From Syntrophorhabdales bacterium (lineage in GTDB: Bacteria; Desulfobacterota; Syntrophorhabdia; Syntrophorhabdales; WCHB1-27): a stretch of DNA of 53,679 bases. The position numbers and the translations under genes were made by a program. The stretch lies in assembly GCA_035541455.1 (NCBI GenBank), contig DATKNH010000085.1:1-53679 (forward strand), written 5' to 3'. A model generated the notes under the pieces. The model was not told where the DNA came from. It worked only from the letters and a program-made list of their open reading frames with translations, and ran no database searches. This document shows positions 615 through 41,530 of this stretch, piece after piece (within the stretch, counting starts at the first letter, position 1; the number at the start of each line of letters is the position of its first letter).

Positions 615-1307
615 ATGGAAAATACCACCATGAAGAAAGGTGGCAAACCCATCCGCAATCCTTACGTCGTGCTCCGCGAGGAGTTCGACGACTGGGCCAT
701 TCTTTTTCATCCCGATACCGGTCGCGGGTTTGGCCTGAACCCCACCGGCGTCTATGTGTGGAAGCTCCTCGACGGAGAACACTCAATTGATGGCATCATC
801 GGGGCCCTGTGTTGGGATGGCGAGAATATCCCGCAAGCAGTAGACGAGCACCTTGCAGTGTTCCTGGAGGAGCTTGTCCGCCATGGGCTCGCCGGACGTG
901 GACGGGCACGCGCTCACGACGAGGGAAGGATCGCGCCGCCGCCGTGTCCCACGCGTCCGCCCGAGGCGGGTCATGACGAACTGGAATTCACGTACGAACC
1001 TCCTAGGCTGGTCGATCTGAGGGTTGATGATTTTGCAGCCCGAGGGTCCGGGGAATGCTGTAACGGTTCAGTAGCCTCGGACTCCGGCTGCAGCAGCGGG
1101 GGTGCACCATACCAATGGGGTTGCTGGGATGGATCCTGCACTCAAGAGAGATGCCACAACGGAAACACCGCCCAGTACCAATGCAATTGCGGTTACAACC
1201 TGTACAACAACGGTTATACCTGCGGATACGGAGCCTGCGATAAAGTCAGCTGCTCAGGTACCGGCGTGAGCAGTCCCGGGCTGTGTTCAGTAGGATCCTC
1301 CCACTGA
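615..1307 (+). CDS. PqqD-like (ScmD-type) recognition domain fused to Cys-rich RiPP core-like tail
   Basis: Residues about 10-100 from the ATG at 615 resemble the PqqD-like ScmD family of SynChlorMet peptide-modification cassettes (motifs VVLREEFDDWAILF and FGLNPTGVYVWKLLDG), a fold that binds precursor peptides and hands them to radical SAM enzymes. After a Pro/Arg linker comes RLVDLRVDDFAARGSGE, which resembles a leader ending in a Gly-Ser junction, then a tail (residues about 148-230) with 12 cysteines among Gly, Asn and Ser in C-x-G/C-x-x-G spacing (CNG, CSSG, CWDG, CHNG). It reads as recognition element plus precursor in one chain. No maturase, peptidase or exporter is visible nearby. 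ATG at 630 is an alternative start; neither has a clear ribosome site, and 477 would add 46 unlikely residues. Function is inferred. Confidence 0.7.
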   Translation: MENTTMKKGGKPIRNPYVVLREEFDDWAILFHPDTGRGFGLNPTGVYVWKLLDGEHSIDGIIGALCWDGENIPQAVDEHLAVFLEELVRHGLAGRGRARAHDEGRIAPPPCPTRPPEAGHDELEFTYEPPRLVDLRVDDFAARGSGECCNGSVASDSGCSSGGAPYQWGCWDGSCTQERCHNGNTAQYQCNCGYNLYNNGYTCGYGACDKVSCSGTGVSSPGLCSVGSSH

Positions 1308-1353: not shown

Positions 1354-1836
1354 TCAGGTAGGAGTCGCTTCCACGCCCCACTCTTGCAGCCGTTTCAAAA
1401 CAGTCGTCACCAGCGCGTCGATACGGCTTTTCAGAACGTCTGTCATGTCGAGTCCAATATCGACGGAGCCCGGCTGAATGCCTACGAGACAGATCTCTGC
1501 AGGCAGTGTGTCGCTCATCCTCGCAGCAAAAAGCAAATCGGAGAGCCCCACGTGATGAGCCGACACCTGAGCAGTCAGAAATGAAGGGATAGAATCCTTT
1601 TCAAGGATCATGATCGAGCCGGGTGGTTCTCCGGTATCAACCGCATCAACAAAAAGCACCCTTCTGTAATCTTCGATCACGGGCAGCAGATCGAGGCCTG
1701 CAGTGCCGCCATCGATGAGATCGATCTGCGGCTTGAACCTGTATCTCTCCCTTATGGCTTCTAGTATGCGTACGCCGACGCCATCATCCTGCATGAGGAT
1801 ATTGCCCAGGCCGATAATGCAGATCTTATTCTTCAC
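1354..1836 (-). CDS. hyaD: [NiFe] hydrogenase maturation endopeptidase
   Basis: This 160-residue protein belongs to the HyaD/HybD/HoxM family, which removes the C-terminal extension of the hydrogenase large subunit once nickel is in place. The family start GLGNILMQDDGVGVR with its metal-binding Asp, the central DAVDTG and the AHHVG histidine motif are all present. It is last in the minus-strand operon and overlaps hyaC by 11 bases. Its probable substrate is the large subunit upstream, which still carries a cleavable tail. Length is normal. Confidence 0.93.
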   Translation of the reverse strand: MKNKICIIGLGNILMQDDGVGVRILEAIRERYRFKPQIDLIDGGTAGLDLLPVIEDYRRVLFVDAVDTGEPPGSIMILEKDSIPSFLTAQVSAHHVGLSDLLFAARMSDTLPAEICLVGIQPGSVDIGLDMTDVLKSRIDALVTTVLKRLQEWGVEATPT

Positions 1837-2521
1837 GGCATGTCTTGTGGCCGGAGAAGATGGAACTCATCACGCAGTTATCTTCCACCAGGTCCGTCGT
1901 CCACCCGATGTACATATGCACGATAGGAAAGACGATCAGAAACCACATGATGAAGTGATGAATCAGACGGATTTCCTGCACAGGAAAATAAGGAAGTATC
2001 CAACCACCCACGACCTTCCAGAAGAGACCCACGTGGCTCTGTGACATGAGGGCAAAACCTGTGAGTATGGAAACAAGATAGCCCAGGAAGAGCACCACGT
2101 ACGCCATTCCGGCGAGAATCGAATGACCAAGGACGAAGGGCGGACGGGGATCCAGCAAGAGATAAAACCGCAGATCGTGATAGAGCTCGTTAAGGCGCTC
2201 CTTCGTGTAGGGGATCATTGTGCTCCACCGTGCATACCTGTTGCCGATAAACCCCCAGTAAATACGCAGCAGCACGCCCATGGCAAAGACATATGCTGTC
2301 GAGAAATGTATCAGCCTCATCCAGCCCATGACGAACTGGTTGTGGGGGTTGGTGCCGTAGAATAGCGGGGATGTGCTGTCTATGTAAGGGTGACCGATGT
2401 AGTAACCGGTGAAGCTCAAGATGATCAGGCACGCTGCATTGACCCAGTGGGACAATCGGACCGGCGCTTCCCAGATATAGACATCAGTCAGCTTCAACGT
2501 GGAGCCAGTGTCACACTTCAT
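1826..2521 (-). CDS. hyaC: Hydrogenase b-type cytochrome subunit
   Basis: The 231-residue integral membrane protein matches the HyaC/HupC di-heme cytochrome b that anchors group 1 hydrogenases and passes electrons from the small subunit to the quinone pool. It has four hydrophobic segments and family histidine motifs (APVRLSHWVN near the N-terminus, RLIHFSTAY, and LIHHFIMWF with FPIVHMYIG near the C-terminus). The start at 2521 overlaps the hyaB stop as ATGA, implying translational coupling; an in-frame start further upstream would lie inside hyaB. Confidence 0.92.
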   Translation of the reverse strand: MKCDTGSTLKLTDVYIWEAPVRLSHWVNAACLIILSFTGYYIGHPYIDSTSPLFYGTNPHNQFVMGWMRLIHFSTAYVFAMGVLLRIYWGFIGNRYARWSTMIPYTKERLNELYHDLRFYLLLDPRPPFVLGHSILAGMAYVVLFLGYLVSILTGFALMSQSHVGLFWKVVGGWILPYFPVQEIRLIHHFIMWFLIVFPIVHMYIGWTTDLVEDNCVMSSIFSGHKTCREE

Positions 2522-4206
2522 TGCTTCTCCCTGGCGTGGACGACGTGAACTGCACATGCCATGCACGGATCAAATGAATGGACGGTCCTGAGTATTTCGA
2601 GGGGCTTGTCCGGGTCAGCCACGGGAGTGCCTATCAGCGAGGCCTCCACGGGTCCCCGTATTCCCTTTGCATCTCGTGGCGAGAGGTTCCAGGTGCTCGG
2701 AACCACGGCCTGGTAATTGGTGATCTTTCCGTTTCTGATCCGTACCCAGTGGCCGAGGGCACCGCGGGGCGCGTCGTGGAAGCCGTACCCTTTCGCCTCG
2801 TTCGGCCAGGTGCCGGGTTCCCACTTCTCCACCTGACAGATGCGGTAGTCACCCCTTTTGATGGTGCCGACGAGTTCGTCGATGAAGCCGGGTATCATCT
2901 CGGCTATGATCAGTGTTTCGATGCCGCGGGCGGCGACGCGGCCGAGCGTGGAGAAAAGCGCGTCGGGTCCGACTTTAAGCCTTTGCAGCACCATGTCAAC
3001 GGTTTCTTTAACCCCCTTATGGCCAGATGCATACGCCACGAGCACGCGTGCTAGAGGGCCTACTTCCATCGGCATTTCTTCGTAGCGCGGCGTCTTAAGC
3101 CAGCTGTATTTTGCCTCAGTGTTCAGATGCTCGTACGGGGGCTTCGGTCCTGTATACTTCGCGTTCGTCTCCCCCTCCCATGGATGTTTTCCCTTCTGAT
3201 CTCCTTCGCCGTACTCGTACCACGAGTGGGTCACATACTCGGCGATCTTCTTCTGGTCGACGGGCAGGATATTGGTCAAGTCTTTTCCAAGAATCATCCC
3301 TTTCGGCAGTTGAAGGTTATCAGTGTTGGTCCGGTTGTCTCCAGGAAATTCCCCATAGGTCATGTAATTCCCGACCCCGCTGCCGTAGGCGGCCCAATCC
3401 TTGTAATACGAAGCTATGGCCAGGAGGTCCGGTATATAGACCTTGCTGACAAAGTCAATAGCCTGTTGCGTCAGTTGAGACATGAGCGCAATAGCATCGG
3501 CATTGATGGCATTCTGGCTGGCGGGATCTACCGGCCGCGCTATCCCTCCCACGAGGTAGGTCTGCAGGTGCGGATTTTTTGCGCCGAGGAGAGCGTGTAT
3601 TTTCGCGATGCCTCTTTGCCACTCGAGGGCCTCCAGGTAGTGGGCCACTCCCAAAAGGTTCACCTCGGGTGGGAGTTTGTAAGCCGGGTGTCCCCAATAG
3701 CCGTTTGCAAAAGGGCCGAGTTGTCCCGTGTCGACGAGACCCTTGACGCGCTTTTGCACCATCGCGAAGAAGGCGGCACCGGAGTTCGGCCAGTCGGACA
3801 ATGACTGCGCAATTGATGCGGTCTTTGCGGGATCGGCCTTAAGCGCACTCACAATGTCAATCCAGTCGAGACCGTGAAGATGATAGAAGTGGATCACGTG
3901 GTCCTGCACGTATTGCACAGCCGCAATGATGTTCCGCATTATACGTGCATTGTCAGGGATCGTCATGCCCAGTGCGTCCTCCACTGCCCGGACAGAAGCG
4001 AGCGCATGCACCGTGGTGCAGACACCGCAGATTCTCTGGCAAAAAAGCCAGGCATCTCTGGGATCGCGGTCCTTGAGCACGATTTCGATACCTCTGAACA
4101 TTGTACTCGATGACCAGGCATCGACGACTTTTCCATTCTCGACCTGCGCCTCGATGCGCAGGTGGCCTTCCAGACGGGTTACTGGATCTATTACTATCCG
4201 TGCCAT
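2518..4206 (-). CDS. hyaB: [NiFe] hydrogenase large subunit
   Basis: This 562-residue protein carries the nickel-iron active site. Both cysteine pairs are intact: RICGVC (Cys60, Cys63) and DPCMAC (Cys548, Cys551). Eight residues follow His554, the usual cut site of the maturation protease, so the precursor should lose VVHAREKQ. The pattern fits group 1 membrane-bound uptake hydrogenases. The chosen ATG at 4206 starts MARIVIDPVTRLEGH, the normal family N-terminus, and overlaps the end of hyaA by 13 bases; the in-frame ATG at 4221 would add five residues. No hyp assembly genes are in the window. Confidence 0.95.
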   Translation of the reverse strand: MARIVIDPVTRLEGHLRIEAQVENGKVVDAWSSSTMFRGIEIVLKDRDPRDAWLFCQRICGVCTTVHALASVRAVEDALGMTIPDNARIMRNIIAAVQYVQDHVIHFYHLHGLDWIDIVSALKADPAKTASIAQSLSDWPNSGAAFFAMVQKRVKGLVDTGQLGPFANGYWGHPAYKLPPEVNLLGVAHYLEALEWQRGIAKIHALLGAKNPHLQTYLVGGIARPVDPASQNAINADAIALMSQLTQQAIDFVSKVYIPDLLAIASYYKDWAAYGSGVGNYMTYGEFPGDNRTNTDNLQLPKGMILGKDLTNILPVDQKKIAEYVTHSWYEYGEGDQKGKHPWEGETNAKYTGPKPPYEHLNTEAKYSWLKTPRYEEMPMEVGPLARVLVAYASGHKGVKETVDMVLQRLKVGPDALFSTLGRVAARGIETLIIAEMIPGFIDELVGTIKRGDYRICQVEKWEPGTWPNEAKGYGFHDAPRGALGHWVRIRNGKITNYQAVVPSTWNLSPRDAKGIRGPVEASLIGTPVADPDKPLEILRTVHSFDPCMACAVHVVHAREKQ

Positions 4207-5315
4207 GGTGGACCCTTCCATTCAGTTTTTGGCTGAGCTTTTAACTCCTCTTTGGGTTTTTTCTTTCGCTTTATCAGGCGCGCTATCACGTGGATGAGAA
4301 TACCTCCGACTGTCGCGGAGGTGACGGCGAGCCCGACTTTATCCGCTGTTGTTTCAACGGTGATGCCGAAGGGCTGCGGGAGCCTCCGGTAGAACGGGGT
4401 CATCTGATCCCAGAAATCAGGCGCAGCGCAGGCGATGCACCCGTGGCCTGACTGCACGGGCCAGCTGGTGCGCTCATTGTATTTGACCGTGGGGCAGTTC
4501 TGGTAAGCAGCAGGCCCCTTACACCCCATATAGTAAAGACACCAGCCGAGCCTATGCCCCTCATCGCCCCACTGTCTCACGTACTGACCCGCATCGAAAT
4601 GGGAGCGTCTCTCGCAATTGTCATGGATCCGTTTGCCGAAAGCGAAGAGCGGCCTTCCCAGGGCGTCGAGCGCAGGCAGCACGCCGAACGTAAGATAATG
4701 GACGATCGCTGCTGTTATATTTTCCGTATTGACAGGGCAGCCCGCGAGGTTGATGACTGTTGCCCCCGGTACTGCGTCGCGCACGCCCACCGCGCCTGTG
4801 GGATTCGGGTGCGCCTTAGGTATGCCTCCGAACGTGGCGCAAGTCCCCATCGCGAAGGTGGCAATAGCGCCCCCACAAACTTCGCGGACGATGTCCACGG
4901 CGCTGCGGCCTGCGATGCAGCAGTAAGCCCCATTCTCGCCGAGCGGGATGGAGCCCTCAACTGCGGCGAAGTATTTTCCTTTATGGTTTTTCAGTACGTC
5001 CGCGAGAGACTTCTCCGCTTGCTTGCCAGCCGGCGCCATGATGGTCTCGGTGTAGTCGAGGGAGAGTATGTCGAGAATCAGTTCGCTGGCGGTCGGCTTT
5101 GCGGCCCTGAGCAGCGCTTCGGTATCTCCCGTGCAACTCTGACACTCTATCCAGACGAGGATCGGTTTCTTCTTTGTCTCCAGTGCGTGTGCAATCCGGG
5201 GCACGTAGCTCTGAGAGAGCCCGAGTGCTGCGGCCATCGCCGAGCAGAACTTGAGAAAATCACGGCGGGTGATACCCCGTTCGAGCATCTCCGCGAGCAG
5301 ACTATCGGCTGCCAT
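4194..5315 (-). CDS. hyaA: [NiFe] hydrogenase small subunit, Tat-exported
   Basis: The 373-residue protein holds the iron-sulphur relay of the hydrogenase. A Tat signal is visible (TRRDFLKF at residues 16-23, then a hydrophobic segment), so the folded complex faces the periplasm. ECQSCTGDTEALLRA is the proximal cluster motif; GTCATFGGIPKAHPNPTGA, the CPVNTENI block and the late cysteine-rich region supply further ligands. A C-terminal hydrophobic helix followed by IKRKKK is the membrane anchor. ATG at 5315 has GGGGAGG at seven bases and begins directly before the Tat signal; the longer in-frame start would bury it. First gene of hyaABCD. Confidence 0.95.
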   Translation of the reverse strand: MAADSLLAEMLERGITRRDFLKFCSAMAAALGLSQSYVPRIAHALETKKKPILVWIECQSCTGDTEALLRAAKPTASELILDILSLDYTETIMAPAGKQAEKSLADVLKNHKGKYFAAVEGSIPLGENGAYCCIAGRSAVDIVREVCGGAIATFAMGTCATFGGIPKAHPNPTGAVGVRDAVPGATVINLAGCPVNTENITAAIVHYLTFGVLPALDALGRPLFAFGKRIHDNCERRSHFDAGQYVRQWGDEGHRLGWCLYYMGCKGPAAYQNCPTVKYNERTSWPVQSGHGCIACAAPDFWDQMTPFYRRLPQPFGITVETTADKVGLAVTSATVGGILIHVIARLIKRKKKPKEELKAQPKTEWKGPPWHG

Positions 5316-5434
5316 AAACCATCCTCCCCTTAGCGCTGAGTTCAAGCCCGACTGTTGAAAATATAGTGTCACCGGTGGCGGCGTGCAACGCCGTCCGGGA
5401 CGTACCGTGTGTTCATCATTCGGAGTTTACTTCC

Positions 5435-8258: not shown

Positions 8259-8731
8259 AAATTCGAAAGCTCTTCTTGGAGATGCAGGTACTCTCGCGTG
8301 AGAGCCTCTCTTTCGCGAGAAAAGAGCACCTGAGCGAAGGCGTTTTTGATATCGGACTGAAGCAGGCGCGCGAGATCTTGTATTTCGAGTCTCGTCCGCT
8401 CCAGGCCGCTCGTCGCTGCGTCAATGCGCAGCCCGGGCTGACCCGCGATCTCGACGCTCTGCGACACGCTGACCTGGTTGTTCCTGAACGCGCCCCTGGG
8501 ATCGCCGGGGGGCCGACCCTGAGTCGACATGCCGCCACCTAATGTTGGATTCGAAAAAGGCGGCAGCTTCGCTTTCGCCAGCTGTCCTCTGGCCGTCTCC
8601 TCCTCAAACCTGAATGCTCTAAGCTCCGGATTATATTTGAGACCCGTTGCCACCGCCTCATCAACCGTGAGAGCATGGACGGTGTTGACACAACAGATCA
8701 CAAGAAGCATGGCTATGCCAGCACGAAGCAT
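8259..8731 (-). pseudogene. N-terminal remnant of a CzcC/TolC-like outer membrane efflux protein
   Basis: A signal peptide (MLRAGIAMLLVICCVNTVHA) is followed by the start of an outer membrane factor: LTVDEAVATGLKYNPELRAF, a Pro-rich loop and a helical stretch ending LHLQEELS. Homology stops near 8260, where czcA-derived DNA begins; the same frame runs to a stop at 8150 but encodes out-of-frame czcA sequence there. Only about 155 of some 400 residues survive. With the adjacent remnant this indicates one large deletion inside a czcCBA operon. Confidence 0.75.
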
Positions 8732-8779
8732 GAAAATCCTCGTGATGACAGAATTGGAAACGTTAAAGAAAATAAAAGG

Positions 8780-9244
8780 TCAGATCAGGAAGCGTTGCGG
8801 CTTGTAGATGGTGATGGCTACGCCTGAGAAGAGGCGCGGGAATTCTCGAAATGAACCATACTCAAACGAGATGAGTGTGGGCTCATGCATAGTGCTTACC
8901 ATGAGTGGACTGAGGCACGCAGGGCAAATGCACGACTGATACCCGTTGTCTGAACTTCCCTCGTCGCCCGCACGCACCTGCTGCGAAGAGGAATCGCATG
9001 AAGCAACGAACGTTCGGCTGCAATGCGAGCAGAAATATATGCCAGTGGCTGAAATGAAGGTGCAGGCCGTAAGCACGGCGACTGCCACTATGCCCGCTGC
9101 AGGAGATCTTGGAAACAACTTGATGGCATAAGTTTGGCAAAACGTGTTGCAGGGGGTCAAGACCGGCAAGTAAGCCGGAAATGCATTTCCCTTTTCAGCA
9201 CCCCTCTTGACAGGCAAGCAGAACCAAACTAGACGTCCTGCCAA
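8780..9244 (-). CDS. Hypothetical protein, probable first gene of the former czc operon
   Basis: The frame encodes up to 154 residues. A hydrophobic segment (AAGIVAVAVLTACTFISATG) resembles a signal or membrane helix; then comes a Cys/Ser-rich part (FCSHCSRTFVASC, CICPAC) and an end with EFPRLFSGVAITIYKPQRF. Short Cys- or His-rich secreted proteins with this type of ending often precede czcCBA in anaerobes, where they may bind metal. The start is uncertain: the TTG at 9244 gives a non-signal N-terminus and true initiation may lie near 9120. I cannot name a family; it may be decaying with its operon. Confidence 0.45.
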   Translation of the reverse strand: MAGRLVWFCLPVKRGAEKGNAFPAYLPVLTPCNTFCQTYAIKLFPRSPAAGIVAVAVLTACTFISATGIYFCSHCSRTFVASCDSSSQQVRAGDEGSSDNGYQSCICPACLSPLMVSTMHEPTLISFEYGSFREFPRLFSGVAITIYKPQRFLI

Positions 9245-9320
9245 TCAGGAATAGTTCCGAATTGACCAAAACAGCCAAAAAATGATACTACAAAGCCTGA
9301 GGTGAAGCAGGAGTGCCCTC

Positions 9321-10436
9321 GTGACCAACGGTATTCATTTGCTCAGGACGTTCTGGTCTTCGGAAATCATCGCGGAGAGCCTTTACGGATTTCTGGCGGC
9401 CGGCTACCTCGACCCGGACAGAAGAAAGCTGATCATGCAGCTGGGAGGCATGGAGCGCGGTCACGCACACGCCTGGAACAAGATTGCCACTGACGCACAC
9501 GGCGTGGCGTTCCATGTTTCTCTTCTCGTAAGATCAAAAATAGTGCTGCTTAAACTGCTCTCGCTTGTGCTGCCGCTCCCTATATTCATCCACTACATGG
9601 AGCATCGCGAGAAGCAAGCTATCCTTGACTACGCCGGACTGCTCGAGGCCTACAAAGATAATGAGAAGATCAGTAGTATCATCAGCAATATTGTCGTGCA
9701 GGAAATCAGCCATGAATGGCACATGATGGAACAGCTTGCGGACAAGCGATTATATATTGCGAAGGTCAAGGAAGCGATCCCGGGCATGACAGCAGGTACA
9801 ATAGAAACGCTGGGGCTTGTTATTGGCTTGCTTGCGGCCCATGCCAGGACCTTTATGATAGGCCTGACGGGCGTGATTGCCATGATCCGAGGCATGATTG
9901 CGGAGACATCAGTTTCCTATATCTCGTCCAAAGAGCATCATGATTTTAATGAAGGGAACAACAAAGAGCTCGACGTAAAAAAAGAACTCAACCCTGCGGT
10001 ACTACGGAGGGAACTCGAAAGGGACCTCCTAGAAAGGGGGGTCAGAAGTGAAACAGTGCAAGTCATCCTTGGAAGCGTCGGAGAGGACGCAGCTGTTCTG
10101 GCCAGCCTGGTGAGGACGATCAGGGCCGGTTCCGAGACTCTTCGGCCGGGCGAATCCATAAAGGCCACCGGTGTTTTCTTTGTCGTCGGGGCCCTGCCTG
10201 TCTTGATACCTTTCTTTGTGGGTACCCTGTTTGGTTCAAGCCCGTCGATTCCAGCAGTGATCGCCTTTGCCGTAGCGGTGGTCAGTATTTCCCTGGCCGG
10301 TCTTTTTACGGCCGTCCTTTCGGGCAAGAGAATTTCTACGAACATCCTGCACAACCTGTGCATAATCCTGGGAACCGCCGCGCTCACGTATCTCGTAGGT
10401 TCAGCAGCGCGCCTGTTCCTCGGGGTAACGCATTAG
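9321..10436 (+). CDS. Ferritin-like domain fused to VIT1/CCC1 transporter domain
   Basis: A 371-residue two-part protein. The first 150 residues form a rubrerythrin-like four-helix domain with iron-ligand motifs (AESLYGFLA, GGMERGHAHAW, EHREKQ, QEISHEWHMM). The rest is a VIT1/CCC1-type membrane domain that moves Fe2+ or Mn2+, with LGLVIGLLAAHA replacing the canonical first helix and hydrophobic helices to the end. The family detoxifies or stores metal. GTG at 9321 has CAGGAG at eight bases. It is followed 61 bases later by the methyltransferase operon, though a shared function is not obvious. Confidence 0.85.
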   Translation: MTNGIHLLRTFWSSEIIAESLYGFLAAGYLDPDRRKLIMQLGGMERGHAHAWNKIATDAHGVAFHVSLLVRSKIVLLKLLSLVLPLPIFIHYMEHREKQAILDYAGLLEAYKDNEKISSIISNIVVQEISHEWHMMEQLADKRLYIAKVKEAIPGMTAGTIETLGLVIGLLAAHARTFMIGLTGVIAMIRGMIAETSVSYISSKEHHDFNEGNNKELDVKKELNPAVLRRELERDLLERGVRSETVQVILGSVGEDAAVLASLVRTIRAGSETLRPGESIKATGVFFVVGALPVLIPFFVGTLFGSSPSIPAVIAFAVAVVSISLAGLFTAVLSGKRISTNILHNLCIILGTAALTYLVGSAARLFLGVTH

Positions 10437-40555: not shown

Positions 40556-41530
40556 TCATCCTCCCGTGCCCCTCATGCTACGCTGGCACTTTCTTATGAC
40601 ACCCGATTCAAATTTTTTCTCGGGCTTTGCGTGGACAATTTTGACGAGTGACTCTGCTATCTCGTCATCCGTCCTGTTACCTCGGAGCAATACCTTGACA
40701 TCATATTCCGTGTCCGAAAAGAGACAGGGCTTTATTTTTCCGTCGGACGTAAGCCTCAGCCTGTTACAGTCGCTGCATATATGGGAGGACATGGGGCTGA
40801 TGAAGCCTATTTTGCCGTTCTGCCCCGGTATTTTGAACATGCGCGCCGGTCCTTTATGTGAGTTCATTGACGGCACCAGGTCGTGCGTCGTCTTGATAAA
40901 GGCTTCCAGTTCTGCAGAGGTGACTACTTTTGAACTGTCCCATAGGCCCGTGTCGCCGAAGGGCATGAATTCTATGAACCTCACCTCCACATTTTCGTGC
41001 TTTGCGAAGGCCACAAAGTCAAGGACTTCGTCATCGTTGAAGTCTTTGATGATGACCGTATTTATTTTCACCGGGCACAATCCCGCATTCTTTGCTTTTT
41101 GTATGCTGTCAAGCACCCTGTCGTGAGCATCCACGCCGGTGATGAATTTAAACTTGTCCCGCTTCAACGTGTCGAGGCTTATATTCAGCCTGCGCAATCC
41201 CGCTTCTTTCAGTTCCAGGACTTTTTCTCCCAGGCTGACGCCGTTCGTCGTCAGGCTGATATCGTCTATGCCCTCAGTGCTCACAATCTCTTCGAGGAGA
41301 AAGGGTAAATCCTTTCGGCGCAGCGGTTCCCCACCAGTGAGACGCACCTTTGTGACGCCCAGGCGGGCTGCTACGCGAACAAACCGTACAATCTCTTCGT
41401 ACCTCAGGATTTCATCGTGCGGTATAAAGGGAAAATCTTTCTCAACACAGTACTTGCAGTGCAGATCGCACCTGTCGGTGATCGATATTCTGAGGTAATT
41501 GATAACGCGGTTGAATCTATCCGTTAACAT
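40556..41530 (-). CDS. moaA: GTP 3',8-cyclase (radical SAM)
   Basis: A 324-residue radical SAM enzyme that starts molybdenum cofactor synthesis from GTP. The SAM cluster motif CDLHCKYC (Cys21, 25, 28), GGEPLRRKDLPFL and the second cluster CSDCNRLRLTSDGKIKPC are intact. The chain ends in Gly-Gly, the C-terminal tail that MoaA inserts into its own active site. It overlaps the end of the upstream moeA fusion by 14 bases. Confidence 0.97.
   Translation of the reverse strand: MLTDRFNRVINYLRISITDRCDLHCKYCVEKDFPFIPHDEILRYEEIVRFVRVAARLGVTKVRLTGGEPLRRKDLPFLLEEIVSTEGIDDISLTTNGVSLGEKVLELKEAGLRRLNISLDTLKRDKFKFITGVDAHDRVLDSIQKAKNAGLCPVKINTVIIKDFNDDEVLDFVAFAKHENVEVRFIEFMPFGDTGLWDSSKVVTSAELEAFIKTTHDLVPSMNSHKGPARMFKIPGQNGKIGFISPMSSHICSDCNRLRLTSDGKIKPCLFSDTEYDVKVLLRGNRTDDEIAESLVKIVHAKPEKKFESGVIRKCQRSMRGTGG

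Follow-up and report, generated by a model that had tools for sequence, protein, structure and literature searches.

A probable self-presenting RiPP precursor joining an ScmD-type recognition domain to a leader and a Cys/Gly-rich core

One open reading frame of the window, by which we mean the whole stretch of 53,679 nucleotides that was analysed and which is the entire contig C85 of its genome (G000), very probably encodes a self-presenting RiPP precursor of the SynChlorMet (Scm) type, that is, a natural fusion of ScmD with an ScmA-type precursor whose maturases act in trans. The frame and its parts are the following:

615..1307, + strand: whole open reading frame 'ScmD-ScmA', a putative fused precursor (ScmD-type RRE, linker, leader and Cys-rich core)
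651..896, + strand: ScmD/PqqD-type recognition domain (TIGR04248, PF05402, AlphaFold, Foldseek)
897..986, + strand: Pro/Arg-rich linker, variable and predicted to be disordered (pLDDT about 58-59; paralogues show no conservation there)
987..1043, + strand: leader segment EFTYEPPRLVDLRVDDFAA with YxxPxL motif, common to all fused paralogues and to separate precursors elsewhere
993-1019, + strand: YxxPxL motif, Y127-L135, within the leader segment (from sequence comparison)
1056..1304, + strand: Cys/Gly-rich core of 83 residues with 12 Cys in C-x-x-G spacing, predicted to be disordered before modification

From the ATG at 615 to the stop at 1307 the frame encodes 230 aa; translation may actually begin at the in-frame ATG at 630, where the alignments of the homologues start. 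An earlier note on this DNA had described a recognition domain and a Cys-rich tail in one chain, and this is confirmed by the tail itself, which follows the RRE after a linker of ~30 residues and a leader, and by the Pfam PqqD model PF05402, which matches residues 29-92 with 43.4 bits (cut-off 23.4). Against the NCBIfam ScmD model TIGR04248, with a cut-off of 100 bits, the protein scores 98.8 bits, or 101.2 in the genome search, and its paralogues on contigs C135, C43 and C42 score 108.6, 98.6 and 92.9 bits, respectively. The domain is thus of the ScmD type, with a score at the cut-off of that model. Assignments to the PqqD of PQQ biosynthesis (TIGR03859, only 13.6 bits against a cut-off of 46) and to the lasso B1 RREs (NF033530, 19.6 against 70; NF033536, 14.8 against 80) were rejected.

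In the AlphaFold model, the pLDDT is 94-96 across most of the RRE domain, 58-59 in the linker, 80-82 in the leader block (residues 121-140) and below 50 in the core, and a short strand is formed in the leader at residues 132-134 (LVD). The best Foldseek matches of the RRE are to TbiB1 complexed with leader peptides (5v1u, 5v1v) and, lower down, to TfuB1 with its leader (6jx3), with TM-scores of 0.80-0.82 by target length. The recognition motif in lasso systems is YxxP, and a broad W/Y/LxxP group takes in PqqD-like RREs (PMC12710340).

The surroundings of the frame show some further features. Upstream, positions 354-396 resemble the 3' half of a tRNA (ggttcaaatcccgatggggacgc), and searches of this region with ARAGORN and Rfam gave no tRNA and nothing else. 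Directly downstream, on the - strand at 1354-5372, the translations indicate by inspection a set of hydrogenase genes, for the large and small subunits, a cytochrome b subunit and a maturation protease, which is unrelated to the fusion.

In the tail, the segment RLVDLRVDDF had previously been pointed out as leader-like; a leader element is indeed present, but its extent was drawn too narrowly, as the conserved core is Y127-E-P-P-R-L-V-D-L. The variants found in the fused tails are YEPPRL, YEQPRL, YAPPEL, YESPML, YEPPQL and YEPPKL. The count of 12 Cys within an 83-residue tail holds, and so does the repeated C-x-x-G spacing suggested for it: 7 of the 12 Cys have Gly at +3, a number reached by only one of 2000 composition-preserving shuffles. 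Over nine fused tails with 103 Cys, this spacing occurs at 56% of the Cys, compared to 21% expected, and none of 2000 shuffles reaches that value. C-x-x-G is the dominant spacing also in the separate precursors (78%), and in both sets Ala is enriched at +6 and Cys at +10.

The similarity extends over leader and core. A profile built from the first 48 residues of 48 separate cassette precursors, with the fused sequences excluded, scores the fused tails at 18.4-44.1 bits, while shuffled tails (200 per tail) reach a maximum of 4.1 bits, or 7.3 for the fused protein of a Nitrospirota locus (L061) discussed below. The window tail scores 34.4 bits and the best of its 200 shuffles 3.8, so that it carries both the YxxPxL leader and the C-x-x-G core of such precursors. 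Judged by its sequence, the fused tail is the precursor part of a putative RiPP, with a substrate leader and a Cys/Gly core. The NCBIfam ScmA model TIGR04252 (cut-off 35) matches no fused tail; of seven separate precursors, five have no match to it either and the other two stay under the cut-off, and in the three genomes searched it gave sub-threshold chance matches only, with nothing of note in G000.

We now turn to the maturases. The window was said to hold none, and it has in fact neither ScmE nor ScmF; the only radical SAM match of the ScmE search within it is the gene at 40556-41530 on the - strand, which adjoins a MoeA-like protein, looks like MoaA by inspection and was rejected as a RiPP maturase. 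Both enzymes are encoded elsewhere in the genome, on contig C160, where ScmE scores 622 and ScmF 613 bits (cut-offs 400), with both Pfam Radical_SAM and SPASM above cut-off. The objection that the genome might have no radical SAM/SPASM maturase thus fails. With regard to sactipeptides and ranthipeptides, in which the radical SAM enzyme installs Cys thioether crosslinks, ScmE is at best distantly similar to PapB (100 bits, cut-off 340) and WgkB (160 bits, cut-off 650). Neighbours of the ScmE and ScmF genes are a divergent ABC exporter, two S26-like open reading frames and another pair of radical SAM proteins; neither ScmD nor a precursor is encoded at this locus. The two additional radical SAM genes (L023, C160 6855-9345, - strand) have no SPASM match and no close family.

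ScmC (TIGR04249, cut-off 125) is found with 305 bits on contig C78, where it overlaps an S26-like gene. A second congeneric species (G044, GenBank isolate Chersky.21_67) encodes ScmC on contig C480 (312 bits), again together with an S26-like gene. Its ScmF, its ScmE and the beginning of its exporter are in synteny with G000 (75-81% DNA identity), here too without ScmD. In neither species do the genes form one cassette, ScmE/ScmF being encoded on other contigs than ScmC, and both on other contigs than the fused precursors. The link between enzymes and substrates rests therefore on their genome-wide co-occurrence in the two species.

No stand-alone ScmD was found in G000, which is about 97% complete. 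All parts of the Scm machinery are thus there, with ScmD confined to the N-terminal domains of the precursor chains. A separate precursor was not found in it either, using a profile of limited sensitivity that missed two of four known fused tails, and a whole-genome search with the narrow codon pattern YExPx[L][IV] gave Cys-rich open reading frames only with the leaders of the window and of C42. Weak profile or pattern matches at C123:37709, C33:1290 and C152:5107 are not Cys-rich precursors. With ScmE/ScmF, exporter, ScmC and peptidases all encoded, and neither a stand-alone ScmD nor a separate precursor found, the genome appears to have an Scm system in which RRE and precursor are fused and multiplied.

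The same genome probably holds a second, unrelated RiPP system, on the - strand of contig C153 (L026). It consists of a radical SAM/SPASM protein with an RRE-like N-terminus (8401-9771; best NCBIfam match StsB, 192 bits of a cut-off of 625) and, encoded with it at 9696-10202, a peptide of repeated CGxGxGCAGGGG units without Pfam or NCBIfam match.

Outside the genus, the situation is different. In the 84,980 species genomes scanned, 78 ScmD loci were found, and at about 75 of these, all outside the genus, ScmD is a stand-alone protein of about 95-110 aa without a Cys-rich tail. At the 75 loci, ScmE is a neighbour in 67 cases, ScmF in 62 and both in 60, most often arranged as D-E-F; an S26-type peptidase lies nearby in 46. 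Separate small open reading frames with a YxxPxL leader and a Cys/Gly core are present in at least 35 of the 75, a lower bound because the regular expression missed, for example, the precursor of L046. Within the phylum, ScmD was detected at E <= 1e-15 in 18 further genomes out of 395, with open frames of 92-142 aa except for one of 186 aa (G361). For one member of the same order with stand-alone ScmD and ScmE (G019), a simple leader pattern found no precursor near the cassette. One Desulfobacterales locus has, next to a stand-alone ScmD, an ScmE-type radical SAM protein that is preceded in the same chain by an ScmD-like domain (L079, 6823-8277). The earlier note was hence right that ScmD is normally separate from its peptide, and the notion that the tail might always be fused in homologues is false. 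As the domain is normally unfused outside the genus, the fusion is a lineage trait and not a rule.

This distribution is also an argument for a different explanation, namely that the fused proteins serve as ScmD chaperones in trans and that their tail is decorative or regulatory, the real substrate being another, undetected ScmA-type peptide. Almost everywhere else, ScmD is a chaperone in its own right; moreover, the profile used to look for separate precursors had limited sensitivity, and the genome is slightly incomplete. However, the narrow leader search returned no Cys-rich frames besides those of the fused copies, the tails contain a complete substrate leader, and nothing would require a chaperone to occur in multiple copies whose cores are hypervariable. 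We consider this explanation unlikely, although it is the best of the alternatives to a self-presenting precursor.

The fused copies themselves provide further evidence. In G000, four PqqD proteins exceed the family cut-off, on four contigs, and all have Cys/Gly-rich tails; three are intact, while the fourth (C42) has its reading frame broken inside the core. A fifth fused copy, on C159, is truncated where the contig ends. The sixth, on C149, is a relic (L140, 1415-1909) whose domain is incomplete and continues directly into part of an IS116/IS110 transposase (PF02371, 76.9 bits). The second species has at least six fused copies: contig C369 carries a tandem array of three, C451 carries two, of which one is truncated at the end of the contig, and C170 carries a single copy with its start cut. 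It had been asked whether the tail is conserved in homologues: every intact fused copy in the two species has the Cys/Gly tail and the same leader.

What differs among the paralogues is the length, the sequence and the Cys number of the tails, with irregular Cys spacing. This speaks against the tail being a metal-binding or disulfide-rich structural domain with no tie to RiPP maturation. The high Cys content would fit such a domain, and the lack of a predicted fold is compatible with metal binding after folding, but the tails share the substrate leader and match separate precursors far above their shuffles, which makes this explanation rather improbable, slightly more so than the chaperone one.

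In pairwise comparisons of the RRE, pN is well below pS (for example 0.17 vs 0.61), and it is lower also in leader and core (for example 0.29 vs 0.58 for two copies of the second species), with dS near saturation in most pairs. With pN below pS in both parts, the tail appears to be kept as coding sequence, yet to evolve faster than the RRE. An annotation or assembly artefact, with two adjacent genes joined through error or chance, can be dismissed almost entirely, as the broken frame of C42 and the transposase-joined relic on C149 might suggest it, but the same open frame, under purifying selection, recurs on independent contigs in two species with diverged DNA.

As to the origin of the fusions, a phylogeny of 84 domains places the eight fused domains from the genus in one clade (100/99). 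Its sister is a group of ten stand-alone domains, mostly from Syntrophaceae and other deltaproteobacteria (joint group 95/90), several of whose precursors carry 14-17 Cys. The Nitrospirota protein L061, which is also fused, is placed among stand-alone Nitrospirota domains (97/89), a position that marks it as a separate, independent fusion event. It has ScmE and ScmF directly downstream, and by inspection its domain is joined in frame to a short ScmA, with an AGGAG-like sequence and an ATG kept before the leader. The junction would fit the loss of a stop codon that once separated two neighbouring genes. Its AlphaFold model has the pattern of the window protein at lower confidence (leader 71-76; strand 113-115). 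We find it likely, if less firmly so than the reading of the window protein itself, that the RRE has become a covalent part of the precursor in a divergent, scattered family with a single maturase set, and that this arose at least twice, in the genus and in one Nitrospirota lineage.

For the self-presenting precursor, the following mechanism can be proposed. The chain would fold its own RRE, and the structural model predicts that the YEPPRLVDL leader docks on it in cis, adding a beta strand; alternatively, leader and RRE may pair in trans or by domain swapping. The leader-loaded RRE would then recruit ScmE and ScmF, the radical SAM/SPASM enzymes of which the genome has one set, on another contig. 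That these would modify Cys/Gly core positions in trans is suggested by the conserved gene order ScmD-ScmE-ScmF-ScmA elsewhere. Finally, an S26-type peptidase and the ABC exporter would release and export the core. In this manner, one maturase set could serve all the scattered precursors with their divergent cores.

It is important to note that the scattering of the precursor genes and the divergence of their cores are observed directly, while the explanation that they could duplicate and scatter because each brings its own RRE is inferred. The overall proposal of the earlier note, that RRE, leader and RiPP substrate form one chain with the maturase in trans, is thus supported by the conservation of the tail and by the presence of ScmE/ScmF. 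The thioether formation suggested there may be one option among several for the putative chemistry of these enzymes; we found no published chemistry for the pair in the open-access literature.

If the substrate carries its own recognition domain, the bimolecular step between leader and RRE is removed, which would explain how the precursor genes could leave their cluster. Such a fusion would also be a ready-made single-chain design for engineering, and the family supplies several new putative substrates of ScmE/ScmF. Genome mining for short precursors near maturases misses fused substrates of this kind.

In published accounts, RREs are either discrete proteins or domains within larger biosynthetic proteins (PMC7470986, PMC12710340). 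In the open-access literature, to which the search was confined, we came across no account of an RRE-precursor fusion. The closest relatives are the Scm cassettes (ScmA TIGR04252, ScmC TIGR04249, ScmD TIGR04248, ScmE TIGR04250, ScmF TIGR04251), with which G000 shares the ScmD-type RRE, ScmE, ScmF and ScmC at or above cut-off, and whose separate precursors have the YxxPxL leader and C-x-x-G core of the fused tails. In contrast to these cassettes, ScmD and precursor are here one chain, present in several copies and dispersed away from ScmE/ScmF. The lasso RREs TbiB1 and TfuB1 have the same fold and YxxP leader class, but RRE and precursor are separate there, and none of the proteins scanned matched the lasso cyclase models. 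In RRE-radical SAM fusions (StsB-like proteins, the ScmD-ScmE protein of L079, the radical SAM protein on C153), the RRE is in cis with the enzyme, whereas here it is in cis with the substrate. Borosins (OphMA and relatives) follow the same principle of a core covalently tethered to a maturation protein; there it is the catalytic methyltransferase that is tethered, while here it would be a non-catalytic recognition domain, with catalysis in trans (PMC8429565). The Scm machinery is thus of a known, if uncharacterised, kind, and what is new is the one-chain RRE-precursor architecture, multiplied and scattered over the genome.
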